Program-made: the position numbers and the translations under genes
Notes under the pieces: model-generated
Databases searched by the model: none
What the model was told of the DNA's origin: nothing
Seen by the model: only the letters and a program-made list of their open reading frames with translations
Source: Parvibaculaceae bacterium Mf 1.05b.01
GTDB taxonomy: Bacteria; Pseudomonadota; Alphaproteobacteria; Parvibaculales; Parvibaculaceae
Assembly: GCA_000509225.1 (NCBI GenBank)
Contig: BAOK01000002.1
Span: 314,496-378,495, forward strand
Length of the DNA stretch: 64,000 nucleotides
Reading direction: 5' to 3'
In this document: piece after piece, positions 4,547-15,354 of the stretch
How the letters are laid out: each line of letters starts with the position of its first letter
Position numbering within the stretch: position 1 is the stretch's first letter

Positions 4547-5155
4547 ATGACCTCTCTCAAAGCCTTCCTCAACTCTCCCATTTTTTTCTGGGCGCTCATC
4601 GCCCTGCCGTCTGTGGGCATGATCAATGGGGCGTTGAGCGGGCGTGACCTTGAAAGCCTGTTGCACCCGACGGGGGAGTTTGCCGCGCGTTTCATGATCA
4701 TCGCGATGATGCTGACACCTTTGCGGATGATGTTTCCGAGTGCGCGTCCGATCCGCTGGCTCCTGGCACGGCGGCGCTATCTCGGTGTGGCGGCGTTCGG
4801 CTATGCGGCGCTTCACACGCTTTATTATGTGATTGATCTTGGCACGCTCGATGCGGTGATGGTGGATGTGGTGAAGCTCGGCATCTGGACGGGCTGGGTC
4901 GCGTTTCTGATTTTCGTGCCCTTGGTGCTGACCTCAAACGCAGCCTCGGTCCGGGCGATGGGGCCGGGATGGCAGACGCTTCAGCGGCTCGTCTATCTCG
5001 CGGCGATCATGACACTGCTGCACTGGATCACCATCCACAACACATTTGGCGGCGCGCTTGCCCACTTTCTGCCGCTCGCGGTGCTGGAGGCGTATCGTGT
5101 GTGGAAAGTGCGGTCTGGTAGGCGCGGGGATGAGCGAAGTGAACGCATAGCATAA
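4547..5155 (+). CDS. ferric-reductase-like (MsrQ-type) transmembrane protein
   Basis: A 202-residue membrane protein with about six helices. The pattern HPTGEFAARFMIIAMMLTPLR, then RRRYLGVAAFGYAALHTLYY and later LVYLAAIMTLLHWITIHNT, places histidines on paired helices as in the ferric-reductase-like haem b domain (PF01794). This family includes MsrQ, which passes electrons to periplasmic methionine sulfoxide reductase MsrP. No msrP is next to it here, so the partner is unknown. The leader holds a strong nested hairpin that includes the ribosome-binding region. The last 12 residues are charged and may be a non-conserved extension. Confidence 0.75.
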   Translation: MTSLKAFLNSPIFFWALIALPSVGMINGALSGRDLESLLHPTGEFAARFMIIAMMLTPLRMMFPSARPIRWLLARRRYLGVAAFGYAALHTLYYVIDLGTLDAVMVDVVKLGIWTGWVAFLIFVPLVLTSNAASVRAMGPGWQTLQRLVYLAAIMTLLHWITIHNTFGGALAHFLPLAVLEAYRVWKVRSGRRGDERSERIA

Positions 5156-5403
5156 CTACCTACGACGACCTTCCAAAGCTGTGTGGTTCGAGCCAGCAAT
5201 CGCTGTTTGAATGTTGGGGAGTTATTGCCTGTTTCGATTCGCAACCCTGCATGTCGGTGCGCTATCCGTGTGAAGCTATGACATGGGAGGCCACGTTGTC
5301 TGACAAACCTACCCCTTTACTGATGTTTTCTGCAATTATCATTTTGCCTAGCTAGTTGAACTATGTCTATTACTATGGACTAGTAAGAAAAATAGGGGAT
5401 GGG

Positions 5404-7752
5404 ATGACTGCGAACAAGGAGGAGGTAAGGCTCCAGGAAAAGAGTAAGAATTTTTTATCTTCCCTGTTGGTAACTCGGGAGGACATCGCGAAGGAGTTTA
5501 GGAAACGCAAGAGCCATTTTGAATACCAGAGTGTTCATCCTGCCGACGTTTCAGAAAATGAAAGCGAAGGATGGGAGATCCAGCGGGAAGGAAAAAGGAG
5601 TACTAGACTCAAGAAAGCAAAGCGCCATGACCGAATGCTTGAAGACCGTGTTTGGTGCTTGCTAAAGAATATGGGCTACCCAGTTCTCAATGACGATCAT
5701 TTTAAGATTGCCTATGAGAGAGTTACTGGAACAGTAAGTAAGAAACAAATTGATGTATACGCTGAAGATAGCGAGACAGTTTTGGTCGTAGAGTGTAAGG
5801 CAAAAAAATCACGCGGCAGACGCTCCCTTCAGAAAGACTTACAAGAAACAATTTCTCTGCAAAAACATATTCGTAGGTCGATATACAGCCGTCTTAATAG
5901 GGGAACTAAACGCCCTAAGATAATTTGGATTTATGTTACCGAGAACATTCTTTGGTCTGAGAATGATATTCAGCGTGCTGAAGAAGGCAACATACAGATC
6001 ATCACTGAGAATGAACTTCAGTACTTTGAAACATTCATTCGGCATATGGGTCCCGCAGGCAGATACCAGGTACTTGGCGAGTTTCTGAAGGGTCAAAAAG
6101 TATCCGGTCTTGAGGATGTGAAGCTGCCGGCCATAAAGGGAAAAATCGGCGGGGAAACATACTATAGTTTTGTTACGACCCCACGTGACCTTCTAAAGAT
6201 TGCATTTATAAACCATCAGGCTCTCAATCATCCTGACGGGCGCCCCGCTTATCAAAGAATGGTTTCTGCAAACAGAGTAAAAGACATTGGCTCGTTTATA
6301 GAAAAGGGTGGGTTCTTTCCTACCAATATTCTGATTAACTTCTCCGACAGTCCTCGATGGGACCTGCTTTCAAATAAGGAGAACACTGATCCAAATGTGA
6401 AGTTTGGATGGATCACCCTTCCGTCCAAATACCGTTCAGCGTGGGTTATCGATGGCCAACATCGTTTGTTTGGGTTTTCCCACCTAGAAGATAAACTCTT
6501 GGACCAAAGTATCTTCGTACTTGCGTTTGAAAAGATGGCGGTGCAAAAAGAAGCCGATCTTTTCATTACGATCAATCACAAACAGAAGAGCGTTCCTAAA
6601 AGCCTTCTTGTGAGCCTGCTTGCTGACATTCGTATGGGCGACGCTGATCTGTCTACAGCCCTTACAGCGTTGGCCTCTGGAGTTGTCCGGTCGCTCAATA
6701 CGGACAAAAGTAGCCCATTGTTGCGCCGTTTTTCGATCCACGGAGTGCCGCCGGAGCCAACGCAGAATCTCACGATTTCGGAAGTCGTGAATGGGCTGCG
6801 GCGCTCTGGTTTGATCGGTCGTTTGTCAAAGAAAGCGTTGATCCCTGGGCCATTGTGCGGTCCCACAGATGAGCACACAATTCGCAGAGCTTCCGAAGTG
6901 CTCGCCATATATTTTGAAACTATAAGAAGGGCTCATCCTGAGAGATGGGAACTCGGCAAGAGTGCATACATTGCTACAAACCCCGGGATCCGCGCCCACC
7001 TCTTACTCATATCCGAAGTGGTTGCCTATTTGTCGCATAAGAAGTTACTGGACTTTGCACTCTTAAAGCCTACCGAGTTTGCAAATCACATCACGGGTTT
7101 TTGTCGACCAGTTACTTCCTTTATCCGTAAGGCCAGCGACGAAGAAGTAGAACAGCTGTTCTCGAGAAAATTCGGGGAAGGCGGCGTCCGGGAATATGCA
7201 TACAACCTAATGAACATACTTGCTGAAACGCATGAGGAATTTGGTACTGAGGAGTTTCGACGTTGGATTGACCAGAGTAAATCTCAAAAAATTGATCAAA
7301 TAAATCAGTTTCTTATGAAGCTAGCTGAGCGCTTAACAGACTATGTAATAGACACTCTCAAGAAAATTCATGGCACACATAGGCTTGCTTCGGATGAGCA
7401 GGCGTTTTGGGAGTTAGGCGTGGAGAGTGAACGCATTCGACGAAACGCATTCGAAAAACAGCAAAAAGACAAAGCGCGCAGAAAACCGAAAGAGGCGTAT
7501 CTCGACATTGTCGACCTGGCTGAAATAGTTAAACAGTCAAACAATTGGGATCACTTTGAACATGTCTTCAAGAATCCGCAAGCCCAAGAAAGAAAGGGGC
7601 AAAAATATTACCTTGGTTGGATACACTCTTTTAACGAGCTGCGTAACATTGCTGCCCACAAAAACCAGATGAAGACGTATACAGATGAAGACCTTGAGTT
7701 TGTCGAGTGGCTGCGGACTGATGTCTCTCCAAAACTGCCGGGATCCGCATGA
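5404..7752 (+). CDS. PD-(D/E)XK nuclease-like + DGQHR (DndB-like) + HEPN-like C-terminus
   Basis: A 782-residue protein from ATG 5404 (AGGGGA just upstream); a TTG at 5356 would add 16 residues. Three parts are visible. (1) About residues 75-230: a restriction-endonuclease-like core with KKQIDVYAEDSETVLVVECK, i.e. Asp117, Glu130-x-Lys132 of a PD-(D/E)XK site. (2) About 250-560: the DGQHR domain, with AWVIDGQHRLFGFS at about 347-360 and the companion FITINHKQKSVP at about 387-398, as in DndB-like proteins. (3) The C-terminus, with FNELRNIAAHKN (Arg747, His752), the R-x4-H pattern of HEPN-type domains. Base composition is clearly AT-richer than the flanks. It overlaps the following methylase gene by 4 bp (ATGA), so the two are translationally coupled. 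A role in DNA modification or restriction is inferred. Confidence 0.75.
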   Translation: MTANKEEVRLQEKSKNFLSSLLVTREDIAKEFRKRKSHFEYQSVHPADVSENESEGWEIQREGKRSTRLKKAKRHDRMLEDRVWCLLKNMGYPVLNDDHFKIAYERVTGTVSKKQIDVYAEDSETVLVVECKAKKSRGRRSLQKDLQETISLQKHIRRSIYSRLNRGTKRPKIIWIYVTENILWSENDIQRAEEGNIQIITENELQYFETFIRHMGPAGRYQVLGEFLKGQKVSGLEDVKLPAIKGKIGGETYYSFVTTPRDLLKIAFINHQALNHPDGRPAYQRMVSANRVKDIGSFIEKGGFFPTNILINFSDSPRWDLLSNKENTDPNVKFGWITLPSKYRSAWVIDGQHRLFGFSHLEDKLLDQSIFVLAFEKMAVQKEADLFITINHKQKSVPKSLLVSLLADIRMGDADLSTALTALASGVVRSLNTDKSSPLLRRFSIHGVPPEPTQNLTISEVVNGLRRSGLIGRLSKKALIPGPLCGPTDEHTIRRASEVLAIYFETIRRAHPERWELGKSAYIATNPGIRAHLLLISEVVAYLSHKKLLDFALLKPTEFANHITGFCRPVTSFIRKASDEEVEQLFSRKFGEGGVREYAYNLMNILAETHEEFGTEEFRRWIDQSKSQKIDQINQFLMKLAERLTDYVIDTLKKIHGTHRLASDEQAFWELGVESERIRRNAFEKQQKDKARRKPKEAYLDIVDLAEIVKQSNNWDHFEHVFKNPQAQERKGQKYYLGWIHSFNELRNIAAHKNQMKTYTDEDLEFVEWLRTDVSPKLPGSA

Positions 7753-8558
7753 GCCAAATTGAACCGATGCTGAAATGGGCGGGCGGTAAACGATGGCTGG
7801 TCGCCTCGAAGCGTAGTGCTTTTCCCAAAGTTGATGGCGCACATATCGAACCGTTTGTTGGATCAGGAGCGGCATTCTTTGCCCTCGAGCCTCGTCGCGC
7901 GATTCTGTCAGATTTGAATCATCGACTTATGGAAACCTACTTAGTGGTAAAAGAAGATGTGGGATTGTTTGAGCGGTATTTTCGTGGGTTTGCAGCTCAA
8001 CACAGCCCCGAGTTTTACTACGAACTTCGGAAGAAGAAGTTTCGTAGTGCAGTCAAGAGAGCTGCGCAGTTTGTCTATTTGAACCGCGTCTGCTTCAACG
8101 GCATATACAGAGAGAATCTGAAGGGCGAATTCAATGTACCGATTGGTTCAAAGACCTCAGCCCTCTTGGAAACCGACAACTTTCCAGCAGTTTCAGAGCT
8201 GCTGTCGGGCGCTCAACTCATGACGGGAGACTTCGAGGCTGCTGTCGATCTGGCTGGTCGCAATGACTTCCTCTACATTGATCCTCCTTATACGACAAAA
8301 CACAATCTAAACGGATTCATCAAATACAATCAGAAGATCTTTTCATGGGACGACCAGGTGCGACTTGCAGAAGCCTTGTTGCGCGCGTCAGGCCGGGGCG
8401 TGAAAATCTTGGTGTCGAACGCTGACCATGTGGACGTGCGGTCCCTCTACGAAGATGCATTCTATCTGAGTTCGGTTCCTCGGAACAATGTTATCGCTGC
8501 ACAAAGCAGTTTTCGCGGGCGAACCAGCGAATTGTTAGCGGCGAATTTTGTTGTCTAA
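7749..8558 (+). CDS. Dam-type DNA adenine-N6 methyltransferase
   Basis: A 269-residue D12-class adenine methylase (MethyltransfD12, PF02086). Motif X is PMLKWAGGKRWLV (6-18), the SAM-binding motif I is EPFVGSGAAFFAL (34-46) with acidic SDLN following, and catalytic motif IV is DFLYIDPPYT (173-182, DPPY at 178-181). Length suits Dam/DpnM-type enzymes that methylate adenine in short palindromes. The ATG lies inside the end of the nuclease/DGQHR gene (ATGA overlap). The pair is therefore likely a self-contained modification plus effector unit. The N-terminal part is AT-rich like its partner. The recognition site cannot be read from sequence. Confidence 0.9.
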   Translation: MSQIEPMLKWAGGKRWLVASKRSAFPKVDGAHIEPFVGSGAAFFALEPRRAILSDLNHRLMETYLVVKEDVGLFERYFRGFAAQHSPEFYYELRKKKFRSAVKRAAQFVYLNRVCFNGIYRENLKGEFNVPIGSKTSALLETDNFPAVSELLSGAQLMTGDFEAAVDLAGRNDFLYIDPPYTTKHNLNGFIKYNQKIFSWDDQVRLAEALLRASGRGVKILVSNADHVDVRSLYEDAFYLSSVPRNNVIAAQSSFRGRTSELLAANFVV

Positions 8559-8757
8559 AGTGTAGGGGTTTTAGACGAAAGACGAAAAAGAATTAAACAA
8601 GGTGTGGATACATTTCAGGTGGGGCCCCACAATTTGATGTCTTGCAGGCGCCCTGAATGTTCTATGCTCTCTTCCAAGAAACTAAAGACATTTTATTGAT
8701 GCATCATCTTATCGATCCTCGTTTCACTCCGGTCGGATGATGCTTGGGGGAGGCGTT

Positions 8758-10442: not shown

Positions 10443-10478
10443 AAAAAAGCCGCTCTCGAGATATCCCGAAAGCGGCTT
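10443..10478 (-). terminator. intrinsic terminator of the first cold-shock gene
   Basis: Stem arms AAGCCGCT (10447-10454) and AGCGGCTT (10471-10478). Read on the minus strand the hairpin runs into TTTTTTGT. It sits 22 bp downstream of the cold-shock gene stop. Confidence 0.9.
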
Positions 10479-10499
10479 AAACTTGGTAACTCGAATGAG

Positions 10500-10709
10500 T
10501 TACTCAACAACCGAGAGGTTCTCAGCAGACTCTTTGCCATTGCGGCCGGTTTCCAGCTCGAAAGAAACCTTCTGGCCTTCGTTCAGCGTGGAGAGACCCG
10601 CACGCTCAACAGCAGAAATGTGCACGAATGCATCTTTGCTGCCATCTTCCGGCTCGATGAAGCCGTAGCCTTTGGTTGCGTTGAAAAATTTGACTGTGCC
10701 TGTAGGCAT
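10500..10709 (-). CDS. cold-shock domain protein (CspA family), copy 1
   Basis: A 69-residue single cold-shock domain. RNP1 is [10 protein letters not shown] and RNP2 is DAFVHIS, with the start [16 protein letters not shown]. These proteins bind single-stranded RNA/DNA and melt RNA structure. The gene has its own terminator and a roughly 150-nt leader. A near-identical paralogue lies about 300 bp away (11003-11212, most residues the same). The two leaders share sequence blocks, so the genes arose by duplication that included the upstream region. Confidence 0.95.
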
Positions 10710-10859
10710 ATTGGTAGTTCCTCTAACACGTATTTAGTCCGCTCTCACGCACCGCGCGCAAGAACGGGTCTTCAACGATCACATTGTCAGGGGATAGATA
10801 AGCTCGCCGGCGAACCGGAAATTCATTTAGCGCGCATCGAATGTAGAACGTATTTGAGG

Positions 10860-11002: not shown

Positions 11003-11212
11003 TTAGTCGACGACTGAGATGTTCTCAGCAGAAGACTTGCCGTCGCGGCCTGGCTCAAGCTCATAAGAGACCTTCTGGCCTTCGTTGAGTGTTGAGAGAC
11101 CTGCGCGTTCAACAGCAGAAATGTGCACGAATGCGTCTTTGCCGCCATCTTCTGGCTCAATGAAGCCGAAGCCTTTAGAAGCGTTGAAGAATTTAACTGT
11201 TCCGGTTGTCAT
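11003..11212 (-). CDS. cold-shock domain protein (CspA family), copy 2
   Basis: A 69-residue single cold-shock domain with RNP1 [10 protein letters not shown] and RNP2 DAFVHIS. It differs from copy 1 at only a few positions (for instance ATKGYG versus ASKGFG near the start, and VVD instead of VVE at the end). It has its own promoter, long leader and terminator, so the two genes are separate transcription units in the same direction. Confidence 0.95.
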
Positions 11213-11468: not shown

Positions 11469-12941
11469 TCAACTCGGCCGGCCACCGGCGGGCCCTGAAA
11501 CCCGCCAGAAATCGCGGCGTGTTTTCGGTCCGTAAGTCTGGAAGCTGGGGTTTGTGCACGCGGCATAGTCGCGGCGCAGCTCCTCTACGCGGTCGTTCGC
11601 CGCTTCTTTCAGGAAGGGCTCGGGATCGACGCCATAAACTTCTGCAGAGTTGAGGCCGAAGATGCGGGCCTTGACGTCTTTCGTCAGGGCTGGATAGCCA
11701 AAGCGTTCCTGGAACTCCTCTGTAATCTCAAAGGTGCGGAAGGTTTCGATCTGGTCTTGGGGGCTGCCCCACCAGATGCTGTCTGTGCCCCAGCAGATGC
11801 GTTCCGGTCCGAAGGTTTTTAGGAGCTTGCCCATGGCGTGCGCCGCGGCTTCGGGCTGGGTCATATGTTCACGCCAAAGGCCGCCCATTTCCGCATAGAG
11901 GTTTCCTTCATTTGGCCGGAACCCGTTTTCCTCATGCGCGCGTATCAGCCGATCAATGCCTTGACTATTGTCCGGGTTGTAGGCGCCTTCCGGGTAGTCA
12001 GGTTCAAAGCCCGAGTGATAGCAGATGAAGGTAAGGTCCGGATTGGCGGCGGCGGCGCGGGCAATGTCGCTTGGGTGCGAATAGGCAGGGTCGAGCATGG
12101 GTAGTGGCAGGCCGCGATGGGAGCAGATGGTGGTGATGTTGAGCTGCCGTGCCTTCTCATAAAAAGGTGCTGCCTGATCGGGATCATCCATGTGATAGCC
12201 CACACCATCCGGTCCCCATTGCGGATAGAGTTTCCAGGCCGCAACTTTATGCTCTTCAGCAAGTTCGTCCATAAAGTCTTCCCAGCCGGGTTCGTTGGGA
12301 AAAACACCTCCATGAATGAGGCCGCGTTCCCGATTGTCTACTTCATTGACAAGGGTGCGGGTCTCGGCGGCATAGTCGATGGGGGTCGGGTTGTTTTCGC
12401 GTCCGCCCCACAGCGCTGAGAGCACAGCGACGTCTGTGTCGCTATCAAGGAAAACTTCCTTGATCATGTTCTGGGCGTCAAAACAATCAAAGTCGAACCA
12501 GCCGCATTGGCGGGCTCCTTCCTCAAAGACAAAGTTGATGGCGATGGTCCACAGGATCCCGTCCATGCCGGAGCGCCATGCGCCGGACGGGTCCACGCAA
12601 TGGGTCTGAATATCGAAAATAAATTCATCGCCTTTGACGTTCGCATTGGCGAGGGCTTCATCCTCTGCCGCATCAAGAGCGACGTTGAAGGTGCCGCCTT
12701 TCGCGCCGGTGGCTGTCGCGGTTTCATTGAGAGCCAGCAGAGTGGCAGCGGTGCCCATGGTGCTTTTCAGAAAGGTGCGTCGGTCTGTGCCCAGACGCTT
12801 TACGGCGTCCGCCACCTTATCAAAGGCAAGGGCTTTCGCGTGTTTTTCGGCTTGGGTCAGAGGTTGAGGCAGGTACTCACCGTTTGAGGTGGTATCGATT
12901 TTTACGGGCAGTCGCGTGCCGTCCGGGTCAAAATCACGCAT
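11469..12941 (-). CDS. amidohydrolase-2 family metal-dependent hydrolase with an internal twin-arginine segment
   Basis: A 490-residue amidohydrolase of the PF04909 type. The first metal-ligand region is FIFDIQTHCVD; further blocks are AAWKLYPQWG, TICSHRGLPLPM, FICYHSGFEPDYP and ICWGTDSIWWG, the last giving the conserved Asp. Relatives hydrolyse or decarboxylate small cyclic substrates; the substrate here is unknown. Residues 53-75 read DRRTFLKSTMGTAATLLAL and look like a Tat signal, but they follow about 50 cytoplasmic-looking residues. A GGGAGGAG sits just before the chosen ATG. Either Tat export uses a long n-region or the true start is internal. Confidence 0.85.
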   Translation of the reverse strand: MRDFDPDGTRLPVKIDTTSNGEYLPQPLTQAEKHAKALAFDKVADAVKRLGTDRRTFLKSTMGTAATLLALNETATATGAKGGTFNVALDAAEDEALANANVKGDEFIFDIQTHCVDPSGAWRSGMDGILWTIAINFVFEEGARQCGWFDFDCFDAQNMIKEVFLDSDTDVAVLSALWGGRENNPTPIDYAAETRTLVNEVDNRERGLIHGGVFPNEPGWEDFMDELAEEHKVAAWKLYPQWGPDGVGYHMDDPDQAAPFYEKARQLNITTICSHRGLPLPMLDPAYSHPSDIARAAAANPDLTFICYHSGFEPDYPEGAYNPDNSQGIDRLIRAHEENGFRPNEGNLYAEMGGLWREHMTQPEAAAHAMGKLLKTFGPERICWGTDSIWWGSPQDQIETFRTFEITEEFQERFGYPALTKDVKARIFGLNSAEVYGVDPEPFLKEAANDRVEELRRDYAACTNPSFQTYGPKTRRDFWRVSGPAGGRPS

Positions 12942-13090
12942 GGTGTCTCCTCCCTTTCCTCAGGCTTGCTAGCTAACCTAATCATTGTTCTCACCGAAAT
13001 TAGTTAGTGCCTTTCGGATACAGCTTAGCCGCTGAACCTTTTATTCGACAGGCCTATAGTGTATTAAAATTGGCATTTTGAGGCGAGTTC

Positions 13091-14719
13091 ATGGCCACAT
13101 TGAAGGCAGGAGAGCCATTTGGACTCGACAACGATTTCGTGGAAGAAATTGATTGGGACATTGCGCTTAAGCGGATACTGCATGACCTGCGATCAGATTT
13201 CATCTTCGCCCCTCATCTTGCATTTGTGTACGAAAAGGCTGGCCAGCAGCTAGTTGAATTGCTTAAAAGCGAGTTGAAGTCAGGAAAGTTTAGTCCCGGC
13301 GTGCCTTTGACTATTGAAGTGCCAAAGTCGTTTCGGATTCGAGTTGCTGCCGGACAGTCGTCTAGGCTTGGACCGAGCTACTCCCGACCAGGCAGCATAC
13401 TGATGCCGCGTGATAGGTTGCTCTATCAAGCTCTGGCCGACCAGGCGGCACCGTTTATTTCTAAAAAGTCAGATCTGACACGTTCGTTCAGCCACAAACT
13501 GGAAGACAGCAAAAGCGCGTCAATGTTCGTGCCGACCAGGATTTGTTGGAACGAGCTTCAATCGGCTCTTGCGAGCCACGCTGAGAGCAACGGCACGTCA
13601 TACATATTGAAACTAGACATCGCAAATTTCTTTGGATCTCTGAATCAACACAAACTGATAAACGTTTTATCGGATGCGGGTTACCCCCAATCACTTGCGT
13701 CTCGATTAGAAGCGATACTCACGAGCTACACAGGCGAACGTAGTTCGCGAGGCATTTTGCAGGGAATGTACCCGTCTGATTTGCTGGGCAACTACTACAT
13801 GGCACCTATTGACCAATTTTTCGGTGATCATGAGGTACCATCGGCACGTTACGTTGATGACATCTACATTTTCGTAGAGAGCGTTGATGCAGCTGAAAAA
13901 CTACTCCGAGAACTCATTCCTACGCTGAGAAGCTATGACCTCGGACTAAACGAAGCGAAGTCTGTAATTATGCCCAAGTCCTCATTGGTTTCTGAGGAAC
14001 CGGATTTGGAGGCGTTGTTCAAGAATGCCGTCAGTGAAATTTCTACCCAGATTGATGAAGCAGATTTTGATGCAGATTATGGGTTCCAATCAGATTGGGA
14101 TGACGGAGAGTCGGGCGCAGGCGATGACGATGAGAACGAGCTTGAACTAATTGCTACAACAATCCTCTTCGATTCAGCATCAGACTACCCAGGACACGAG
14201 GAGAGCATTGAACGTTTCTGCTTGCCTCTCTTTGCAAAGGCAAACTCGGACTATGCTGTTGACTATGTGCTAGAGGCTTTTTCGAAAAGGCCCGCAATGT
14301 CTCAGATTTATGCAGCATATTTGGCAAGGTTTCTGGACAGCAATGAAGTTATGAGTGTTTTGGTCAAGTTGTTGGAGAAGCCCTTAATCGCCGATTGGCA
14401 GAAGGTTTGGCTTCTTGCAGCTATCTCGCAAGCAGGAAAACCAAATGACTTAGGTGTTAAAGTGGCACTTAGTTTGTTGAAGGATGCAAACAAACACGAA
14501 GCGCTGAGGGCTGTGGCGGCGACATATGTTGGACTGTTCGGTGACCACTCCAGGAGGATGACTCTGCGACTTCTCTATCCATCTCTCACGGAATACATCC
14601 AAGCGGCTGTCTACTATTCATCCAAGAGTTGGCCTGGCGTTGAGAAGAACAATGCAAAGGCACAATGGTCTTCGCTTGGTTCGCTAAATAAGTTGTTATC
14701 TGCAGCTATGGGAAACTAG
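13091..14719 (+). CDS. reverse transcriptase of the UG/Abi (DRT-like) kind
   Basis: A 542-residue protein with RT motifs in order: a leader block with MPRDRLLYQALADQ (105-118), motif A LKLDIANFF (173-181, Asp176), motif B RGILQGMYPSDLLGN (220-234), motif C RYVDDIYIF (253-261, catalytic YVDD) and GLNEAKS (285-291). After an acidic linker (about 320-360, rich in Asp/Glu) comes about 180 residues of helical repeats. There is no group II intron maturase, integrase or retron-type partner beside it. Architecture and isolation fit the antiphage-associated UG/Abi reverse transcriptases; assignment to a numbered group needs a tree. GAGGCGA precedes the ATG. The gene is AT-richer than its neighbours and lies alone between two leftward genes, as expected for an inserted cargo gene. 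Confidence 0.85.
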   Translation: MATLKAGEPFGLDNDFVEEIDWDIALKRILHDLRSDFIFAPHLAFVYEKAGQQLVELLKSELKSGKFSPGVPLTIEVPKSFRIRVAAGQSSRLGPSYSRPGSILMPRDRLLYQALADQAAPFISKKSDLTRSFSHKLEDSKSASMFVPTRICWNELQSALASHAESNGTSYILKLDIANFFGSLNQHKLINVLSDAGYPQSLASRLEAILTSYTGERSSRGILQGMYPSDLLGNYYMAPIDQFFGDHEVPSARYVDDIYIFVESVDAAEKLLRELIPTLRSYDLGLNEAKSVIMPKSSLVSEEPDLEALFKNAVSEISTQIDEADFDADYGFQSDWDDGESGAGDDDENELELIATTILFDSASDYPGHEESIERFCLPLFAKANSDYAVDYVLEAFSKRPAMSQIYAAYLARFLDSNEVMSVLVKLLEKPLIADWQKVWLLAAISQAGKPNDLGVKVALSLLKDANKHEALRAVAATYVGLFGDHSRRMTLRLLYPSLTEYIQAAVYYSSKSWPGVEKNNAKAQWSSLGSLNKLLSAAMGN

Positions 14720-14756
14720 GACGTTTGGCAGCTTGGTGACTTTTTTGAGCTGCCTC

Positions 14757-15176
14757 TCATTTCGCCTCACAAAATTCCTTGAGGCCTTTGTTTTCAGTCT
14801 CAAGCGTCTTGAGGGCCTGGCGTTTGGCGATGGGCCAGAGCAGGAAGGCAAGCACGCTTTTCAGTTCCAGGCCCAGCGTGTTGGTGCAGCCGGTCTCTGT
14901 TGGCACGGTGTGATGGGTGGCGGTGAAGTGGATGCCGCGCATATGCGTTTCCCAGACGAAGCTCTTTCCTTCTTCCATTTCGATGACGGTCCAGATCGCT
15001 TCGGGCATGCCGGGCTGTTGCATGCGGGCATGACTGCCGATGCGAAAGGGCCCATCGTCCTGGCGGGTTGCCTTTTCCACGGTTGGAGTCCAGTCCGGCC
15101 AATTGTTGATGTCGGCTGTCACAGCCCAAACAGTTTCAGCCGGCGCGTTGATCTCGATTGTATGTTCAACCCTCAT
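14757..15176 (-). CDS. SRPBCC family (polyketide cyclase/START-like) protein
   Basis: A 139-residue START-like domain: the start MRVEHTIEINAPAETVWAV and DINNWPDWTPTVEKA are the classic first strand and loop of SRPBCC proteins. The C-terminal helix (LLWPIAKRQALKTLETENKGLKEFCEAK) closes the ligand cavity. Such proteins bind hydrophobic ligands; the role here is unknown. The start was set at 15176 because AGGAG precedes that ATG and the homologous pattern begins there; the frame is open 60 codons further upstream without family resemblance. Confidence 0.85.
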   Translation of the reverse strand: MRVEHTIEINAPAETVWAVTADINNWPDWTPTVEKATRQDDGPFRIGSHARMQQPGMPEAIWTVIEMEEGKSFVWETHMRGIHFTATHHTVPTETGCTNTLGLELKSVLAFLLWPIAKRQALKTLETENKGLKEFCEAK

Positions 15177-15354
15177 GGAGCCACTCCTGGCACAGAATAA
15201 TTTTTCTTCCATATGGGCACGGGACCTTAGGACCGCAATCTCCCTCGGGTGAACGCTTTTTTTGTATCGTGACGGCGGGCCGCACTGCTCAATGCCTGAT
15301 TTCTGTGCTTTATAGGTGCATAGGTCGAAGGCACGTGAAGTCGGTTTGGGGTGC

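Follow-up and report, generated by a model that had tools for sequence, protein, structure and literature searches.

A stand-alone UG20-family reverse transcriptase with an invariant linker tyrosine as a candidate priming residue

Class 1 reverse transcriptases (RTs) combine an RT domain with an alphaRep domain, and those studied to date carry out template-independent synthesis that is sometimes protein-primed (PMC13174585; PMC13275509). AbiK primes from a tyrosine in its N-terminal fingers, and AbiA from Tyr298/Tyr303, which lie in the loop that joins the RT to the helical domain (PMC11077055); in DRT9, tyrosines at the C terminus probably prime (PMC12483538). DRT4 has been described as protein-primed from a conserved tyrosine, with a product of random single-stranded DNA that is protected by a phage protein (PMC13314766; PMC13213688). 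Both DRT4 and DRT6 have been described as single-gene systems (PMC13213688). DRT3b, an RT-like domain with a six-unit alphaRep, needs no nucleic-acid template to synthesize its poly-(dCdA) (PMC13174585), and the ncRNA of DRT10 is 137 nt long (PMC12632851). The mechanism of DRT8 has not been established (PMC13213688), and none is given in the accessible text of PMC13213688 and PMC13314766. In the accessible text of myRT (PMC8934634), classes such as UG21, UG22 and UG7 are named without a function. For UG20, a full-text literature search returned no mechanism, activity, oligomer or phage data, and absence from such a search is not absence in print.

The window analyzed here is a 64,000-nucleotide stretch from Parvibaculaceae bacterium Mf 1.05b.01 (assembly GCA_000509225.1, contig BAOK01000002.1, positions 314,496 to 378,495 of the forward strand). 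It holds a gene that an earlier note, made from the letters alone, had taken for an RT of the UG/Abi kind. Homologous loci are given below by L numbers. The features of the gene, in window coordinates, are as follows.

13091..14719, + strand: UG20-family reverse transcriptase gene, 542 aa, an intact open reading frame (ORF) with PADLOC RT_UG20 and RVT_1 matches
13154..13990, + strand: RT-like domain, residues ~22-300, from profile, conservation and model
13616-13618, + strand: codon of the predicted catalytic Asp176 (motif A), from the alignment
13850-13861, + strand: YVDD, residues 254-257, from the alignment
14066..14134, + strand: low-confidence acidic linker, residues 326-348, pLDDT under 50
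14078..14080, + strand: codon of Tyr330, the proposed priming residue, invariant in 15/15 intact UG20 proteins
14147..14713, + strand: predicted HEAT-like alphaRep domain, 12 helices, residues 353-541, pLDDT 95.3 in the models

The ORF starts with ATG, the preceding in-frame stop codon begins 12 nt upstream, and a protein search of the host's own genome found a single copy at E <= 0.001. The protein matched the PADLOC RT_UG20 profile at 736 bits over its full length (1-511/511), and the runners-up were UG21 (199 bits), UG22 (157) and Drt8 (140). The sole Pfam match at E <= 1 was RVT_1 (64 bits against a cut-off of 29.6). The NCBIfam models of named DRTs all scored below their cut-offs (Drt5, 70.8/550; Drt3a, 55.5/200; Drt4, 41.1/450; Drt3b, 27.9/350; Drt2, 23.4/390), as did the AbiA model (34.3 bits against 250) and group_II_RT_mat (62.8 bits against 300); the retron model was matched far below its cut-off. 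In a maximum-likelihood tree of 43 rows, the window protein and 14 other intact UG20 proteins formed one clade with a support of 100/99, distinct from the DRT8 clade (92/88). The UG/DRT rows were separated with a support of 99/93 from the group II rows, 10/10 of which pass the group II cut-off, and from six other RTs, one of them (L077) labeled simply "RT" by PADLOC. UG21, UG13a and DRT6 were each represented by a single long-branch row, and the order among them was not fixed. By its sequence, the window protein is a UG20-family RT. It is like the UG20 RTs in its full-length profile match and by monophyly, although the nearest intact relative, a plasmid gene of Candidatus Manganitrophus (Nitrospirota), is only 64% identical. 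Full-length profile match, tree and fold agree with the UG/Abi assignment of the earlier note, and placement with the group II intron RTs, one of the grounds that the note had named for giving the assignment up, was not seen in the tree.

The residues D176, D256 and D257 were invariant in 15/15 intact UG20 homologues. YVDD and motif A are intact, as the earlier note had stated; motif B, which it had listed with them, is present but non-canonical (QGxxPSDLxGN), and "intact" was slightly generous here. At the position where UG20 carries Asp230, which is invariant in the family, SP is the usual pair.

We modeled the protein with AlphaFold2 on a 13-sequence alignment (A2, which omits L005 and L006; the 15-row alignment A5 includes both), with a mean pLDDT of 81.5 and a pTM of 0.83. 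The model consists of an RT domain, a low-confidence stretch at 326-348 and helices to the C terminus. Between the strand at 292-295 and the alphaRep it contains only the helices 297-300, 304-318 and 323-326. The linker residues 320-352 are 45% D/E with zero K/R, and the C-terminal 192 residues modeled alone gave 12 helices at a pLDDT of 95.3; the helical C-terminal extension behind an acidic linker, as described earlier from the letters, is thus reproduced in the model.

The C terminus alone was compared with known structures by Foldseek, in which the first 27 rows were mostly artificial HEAT-like alphaReps (best E, 2e-3) and no PDB match reached E <= 0.001. With VIA-align, Z was at most 14.1, and armadillo and other HEAT proteins came close behind. 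These matches are near the level of helical-repeat noise and are only supportive. The matches of the whole model to DRT6, DRT4 and AbiK cover the C terminus and are for this reason a stronger test: DRT6 aligned with Z 20.4 over 446 residues, DRT4 with Z 19.7 over 445 and AbiK with Z 16.5 over 447, which bears out the earlier likening of the C terminus to that of AbiK. Further whole-model matches were the UG15 crystal structure (Z 17.6, 446 residues), AbiA (Z 16.8, 391) and Abi-P2 (Z 15.3, 389). The window protein is therefore like DRT4, DRT6 and AbiK in its RT plus alphaRep composition and in the whole-chain fold of the predicted model, at 12-19% identity over the fold alignments. AbiA, like UG20, has an RT and a helical domain, but it adds a HEPN domain at its C terminus and forms a dimer, whereas UG20 ends after the alphaRep. 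DRT9 (Z 17.6, 250 residues) and DRT2 (Z 17.4, 254) matched over the RT part only. In all, the models support a HEAT-like (alphaRep) solenoid at the C terminus and, with it, a Class 1-type architecture. For group II RTs, Z rose to 21.6 in alignments of ~260 residues that lie mainly in the RT domain; with that domain alone they score as high as the DRTs do along the entire chain. When the PDB was searched by sequence profile, natural RTs matched by the RT domain only, with a CART-CAPP RT first (DRT6, E 1.6e-11; AbiK, 6.1e-11; DRT4, 1.2e-7; DRT9, 7.7e-7), and artificial alphaReps matched the C terminus weakly (E, 0.07-1.1). This search ranks other RTs above DRT6 and AbiK.

Among the 15 intact UG20 proteins, 63 of the 542 columns were invariant, and within the linker (320-352) Tyr330 was the sole invariant residue. 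It begins a YGFQSxW motif, with Gly331 and Trp336 almost invariant as well; in most of the proteins the acidic run comes next. Tyr330 lies 37-40 residues from the conserved lysine of motif D in 15/15. The linker carrying Tyr330 is poorly modeled (pLDDT <50), and its reach to the active site is not visible there. The tyrosines from which AbiA primes, Tyr298 and Tyr303, are linker residues, and Tyr330 sits in the corresponding RT-alphaRep linker of UG20. Judged from this conservation, Tyr330 is, somewhat better than evenly, the residue from which the enzyme primes. The invariant linker tyrosine is new here and gives a single-residue handle on DNA priming.

For the locus as a whole, we lean slightly towards a stand-alone Class 1-type UG/Abi enzyme that would be protein-primed from Tyr330, template-free and used in abortive defense. 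The UG20 RT would work as a homo-oligomer, in which the alphaRep would replace the thumb and build the oligomer. The RT-like palm would add dNTPs, with no RNA template, to a tyrosine hydroxyl of its own protein, most likely that of Tyr330, which lies in the flexible acidic stretch joining RT and alphaRep. The product would be single-stranded DNA covalently tethered to the UG20 protein, and a phage trigger, as for DRT4, would let this DNA accumulate or act, so that the infected cell is stopped. Catalysis without a template is, in our judgment, quite probable, and an abortive antiphage role is probable as well, if a shade less so; the homo-oligomer and the phage trigger are proposed by analogy only.

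The same Class 1 mechanism could also start from another hydroxyl, belonging to an N-terminal fingers residue, to Tyr407, Tyr410 or Tyr496, to a conserved Ser or to the C-terminal tail. The YGFQSxW motif would then be a docking or structural element, and it may indeed serve docking rather than priming, since Gly331 and Trp336 are nearly invariant too. AbiK with its fingers tyrosine (PMC11077055) and DRT9 with its probable C-terminal tyrosines (PMC12483538) are precedents, and Tyr407, Tyr410 and Tyr496, the other invariant tyrosines of UG20, are joined by Ser35, Ser134, Ser219 and Ser229 as likewise invariant residues. However, no tyrosine N-terminal of 330 is invariant in the 15 sequences (Tyr112, Tyr254 and Tyr259 are present in 14/15), and the priming tyrosine of AbiK has no invariant UG20 counterpart. 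The three other invariant tyrosines all lie within the alphaRep, in a confidently predicted helical-repeat domain; Tyr330, by contrast, stands in the flexible linker, which has no further invariant residue. Another priming hydroxyl therefore appears unlikely to us.

The DRT8 proteins are like UG20 in their RT, in a linker tyrosine, in a C-terminal extension and in a full-length profile-profile match (496 columns, probability 99.9), in which Tyr330 is aligned, within a gapped stretch, to Tyr301 of L060; they differ from the window protein by clade and by the profile scores given above (Drt8 against UG20). The linker alignment between families is weak. A linker tyrosine was present in 9/9 DRT8 proteins (rows L059 and L073 are near-identical, which makes the nine rows about eight independent ones), in one alignment column for 8/9. 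Its spacing from the motif-D lysine was 36-37 in 6/9 and +42, +50 and +60 in the others, and 7/9 proteins hold two to five tyrosines in the searched interval. In the UG21 protein three tyrosines lie in the linker, one of them within LPYTDG, and in the UG13a protein there is a single one, at +70; in DRT6 protein L003 the same interval is free of tyrosines. By our estimate, chance alone would frequently place a tyrosine somewhere in a linker of 60 residues, and the weight is therefore on the single invariant column of UG20 and not on the presence of tyrosines in other families. It is possible, at somewhat less than an even chance, that UG20, DRT8 and perhaps UG21 form a Class 1 branch that primes from a linker tyrosine in the way of AbiA, unlike the fingers tyrosine of AbiK. 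If so, the position of this residue would let the priming mode be read from the sequence in many UG families not yet studied, and if the rule holds for Tyr330, it would speak for DRT8 too.

A product different from the tethered single-stranded DNA proposed here would be a protein-directed, sequence-defined repeat, as in DRT3b, whose RT-like domain with six-unit alphaRep makes its poly-(dCdA) untemplated (PMC13174585). The unusual invariant Asp230 in motif B of UG20 could be read in its favor. Yet DRT3b works together with DRT3a and an ncRNA, and an all-vs-all comparison of the ORFs around 19 UG20 loci (>= 60 aa, within 8 kb; 1299 ORFs, mostly spurious; window and L017/L024 excluded) gave no conserved partner gene, no group being common to >3/19 loci. 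We consider a DRT3b-like product very unlikely.

The surroundings of the gene comprise the following features.

12942..13090, + strand: leader of 149 bp, which also lies upstream of the divergent amidohydrolase gene; neither conservation nor structure was found across the family
11469-12941, - strand: amidohydrolase gene, left neighbor of the RT gene
~14757-15179, - strand: polyketide-cyclase/SRPBCC gene, right neighbor of the RT gene
14727..14754, + strand: stem-loop right after the stop codon, weak and terminator-like; one found against 2.1 expected in shuffles, not significant

A single AT-rich gene flanked by two leftward genes, with only about 150 bp of non-coding DNA upstream, had been described in the earlier note, and each of these points was recovered. 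The amidohydrolase and SRPBCC genes are both on the minus strand, the non-coding stretch measures 149 bp, and the GC and GC3 values of the RT ORF (0.478/0.497) are below those of the left gene (0.578/0.646) and of a flavin adenine dinucleotide (FAD) monooxygenase to the right (0.603/0.647). Across the whole window, the tRNA and Rfam matches were just two, a tRNA-Thr (2877) and a cspA element (10444-10835); the scan gave no Rfam match near the RT gene. A search for sigma-70 promoters found none in the leader, with 1.7 expected over the scanned region.

An RNA-templated, Class 2-like system would depend on an ncRNA, short or restricted to a lineage, that lies in the leader, in the ORF or elsewhere. 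A leader of 133-149 nt is about as long as the 137-nt ncRNA of DRT10, so size alone is no argument against an ncRNA. We compared 22 loci (600 nt upstream plus 30 coding nt; the 21 UG20-like loci minus L017, plus the UG21 locus L008) and found no family-wide leader homology. Matches were confined to the close relatives L012/L014/L018, L006/L009 and L019/L026, the last of these almost entirely in the coding part; one inverted 20-mer was shared by L011 and L026 (E 0.024). Between the window and L005, whose proteins are 65% identical, leader identity was 0.45-0.57 against a random baseline of 0.52-0.55; of nine pairs compared, the five more diverged ones all had leaders about as similar as random sequence. 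The final 80 nt of the leader were 72-85% identical in the closer pairs L012-L014 and L012-L018, against 60-63% at fourfold sites, a comparison that leans upward, since gaps are allowed in the leader alignments and random sequence already gives 52%. For L006 and L009, the stretch from -80 to -40 was 70% identical, which exceeds the 95% baseline (60%). Some constraint on the leader is thus likely in the Bradyrhizobium/Rhodopseudomonas and L006-L009 clades, on these sequence comparisons, and a promoter with a ribosome site would suffice for such local conservation.

Folding gave no excess in 15 leaders (z, -1.57 to +1.62; window, -0.65), and RNAalifold found no net covariation in the three conserved leaders (covariation term, +0.57, unfavorable; 2/29 pairs with two-sided change). 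The conserved leader structure that the earlier note had proposed to look for was therefore not found family-wide, and its statement that the gene has no neighbor of the intron or retron type agrees, as far as the leader, fold, Rfam and neighbor comparisons go, with what was found; these comparisons gave no ncRNA-type partner either. A distant DNA search of plasmids matched the Manganitrophus gene alone, with the match starting within the ORF. Downstream, the 80 nt past the stop codon were 0.49-0.57 identical in 6/7 pairs (random mean, 0.54) and 0.68 identical in L012-L014; this comparison omits two pairs with L018, a broken or cut-off copy that lacks a true stop. A downstream blastn search gave a 14-mer (L016/L021) and a 21-mer (L007/L009, 95%). 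Together with the restriction of DRT2 and DRT9 to matches in the RT domain, the leader results make a Class 2-like system highly unlikely, slightly more so than the DRT3b-like product. A conserved upstream ncRNA was not found as a family-wide feature in these comparisons of leader DNA, fold and covariation, and an ncRNA keeps a low but non-zero probability.

UG20 is rare. At E <= 1e-60, it was found in 1/385 sampled genomes of the class (the window's own), in 2/398 of the phylum (the window's own included) and in 0/14 control genomes; 60 relatives, 6 of them congeneric, gave two weak matches only, with the PADLOC labels DRT8 and DRT6. Among 84,980 species genomes, a scan with two short peptide patterns and alignment A1 as the query gave at least 24 loci, of which at least 18 were UG20-like (L009-L026, from 17 genomes). 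These counts are lower bounds and leave L027-L032 uncounted; an earlier scan of genome contigs with a single sequence as the query had given no match. A plasmid search added three UG20-like loci (L005-L007). The total is at least 21 UG20-like loci (the window, L005-L007 and L009-L026, with L017/L024 merged as one gene on two contigs), of which 15 were intact, 4 were disrupted and 2 (L017/L024 and L018) were cut or ambiguous at contig ends. L037, L048 and L062 were taken as the gene of L009, and L002 as that of L057, each counted once. The UG20 label was checked by profile in 9/21 loci (window, L005, L009 as L037, L015, L016 and L020-L023) and is based on tblastn similarity for the remaining 12; the disrupted or cut copies (L007, L017/L024, L018, L019, L025 and L026) are outside the UG20 protein alignments A1-A6 and the tree.

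The hosts of intact copies include Alphaproteobacteria, Nitrospirota, Bacteroidota, a Kaiserbacteria metagenome-assembled genome (MAG) and a Methanomicrobia MAG. The Nitrospirota sequence nests in a 9-row clade (98/95) whose other named hosts are alphaproteobacterial, which would fit horizontal transfer. No phage-borne UG20 was found in 50,697 phage records, which gave two weak RT-domain matches only, nor was a virus-borne one found in two scans of viral contigs with short peptide patterns (four weak RT-domain loci in the first and none in the second); E. coli genomes gave no DNA-level match to the RT gene. In the disrupted copies, the frame is changed (L007 and L019) or an internal deletion has removed catalytic parts (L025 and L026). 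Within its first 310 residues, the Bradyrhizobium copy L019 is 70% identical to the window protein and is its closest relative there; the remainder is 60% identical. The earlier note had held that a frameshift in close homologues would speak against its reading. Such copies exist (4/21, including L019), yet 15/21 are intact, and the disrupted ones are therefore read as the ordinary decay of some copies. Close intact homologues are under purifying selection, as judged from sequence: L012 and L014 are 89% identical in amino acids and 63% at fourfold sites, and L006 and L009 are 89% and 50% identical, respectively. A retroelement RT or a degraded non-defense gene, which the four disrupted loci might suggest, is hardly credible given the low group II score, the position outside the group II clade and the selection on intact copies.

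Genes of defense type were found near at least 4/10 close loci, and also near L007; these counts have no random-locus control, and no enrichment is claimed. GajA and GajB (Gabija) were near L013 and L014, LmuA and LmuB (Lamassu) near L006, a partial IetA match near L010 and a type I restriction-modification (RM) specificity subunit near L014, and annotated SIR2, DarT and macro-domain genes were near L007. Of the 81 neighbor ORFs of the 10 loci, 28 were scanned singly and the others were covered through a tally, with 25/215 families among those listed.

Two congeners, G001 and G004, lack a segment that contains the RT gene.

12958..14759, + strand: segment missing from G001 and G004 in the alignments, the inserted unit

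The alignment of the window to G001 (L045) ends at 12957 and restarts at 14760, and that to G004 (L046) ends at 12952 and restarts at 14761. The amidohydrolase and SRPBCC genes are adjacent in both congeners, and a unit of ~1.8 kb, the leader plus one gene, has therefore been inserted here or lost in the congeners. At the edges, a search for a target-site duplication found only 5-mers, which an informal judgment puts down to chance. The UG20 gene, whose site is empty in two congeners, is a clean one-gene cargo, and the sequences fit a horizontal acquisition of the RT as a one-gene unit. In the Bradyrhizobium/Rhodopseudomonas relatives, the common DNA reaches back to 68-115 nt before the start codon, and in the pair L012-L014 it runs ~35 nt beyond the stop; this short extent of common flanking DNA likewise fits a one-gene cargo.

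Another defence-like insertion was found 4.5 kb to the left of the UG20 reverse transcriptase (RT) gene, at window 5356-8558. The product of one of its genes is 798 aa long and carries a DndB/DpdB-type domain; it also gave a sub-threshold match to a Card1-like nuclease. The end of this protein overlaps the start of a gene for a D12-class adenine methyltransferase. The congener genome G001 lacks the window segment at about 5123-8654, in which both genes lie. The two proteins look like a modification-plus-nuclease pair.

Two neighbouring cold-shock-protein-like ORFs were also present in the window:
10500-10709, minus strand, cold-shock-protein-like ORF 1
11003-11212, minus strand, cold-shock-protein-like ORF 2
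The first is overlapped by a match to the Rfam cspA thermoregulator (10444-10835, minus strand).

The neighbours of two intact UG20 homologues were recorded as well. In Sinorhizobium medicae, a 1281-aa protein with a CHAT domain at its C terminus (L006:3974-7816) ends 182 bp upstream of the RT on the same strand, and Lamassu genes are located downstream. In Bradyrhizobium sp. Ai1a-2, a Tc-toxin gene of the TcA kind (L013:57-4856) lies upstream of the RT, with a Gabija-like pair on the opposite side.

Two UG20-like copies, L026:8001-9187 and L025:8001-8680, have lost the RT catalytic part through internal deletion. Their hosts, Tardiphaga and a Leptospiraceae MAG, are unrelated. This loss may reflect either chance decay or selection against activity.

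Within DRT8, a separate RT clade, the protein encoded at L058:1471-3045 carries WMDD instead of YxDD as its catalytic motif. On an Aminobacter plasmid, a second reverse transcriptase family gene (L059:3845-5575) was found directly behind a DRT8 RT gene.
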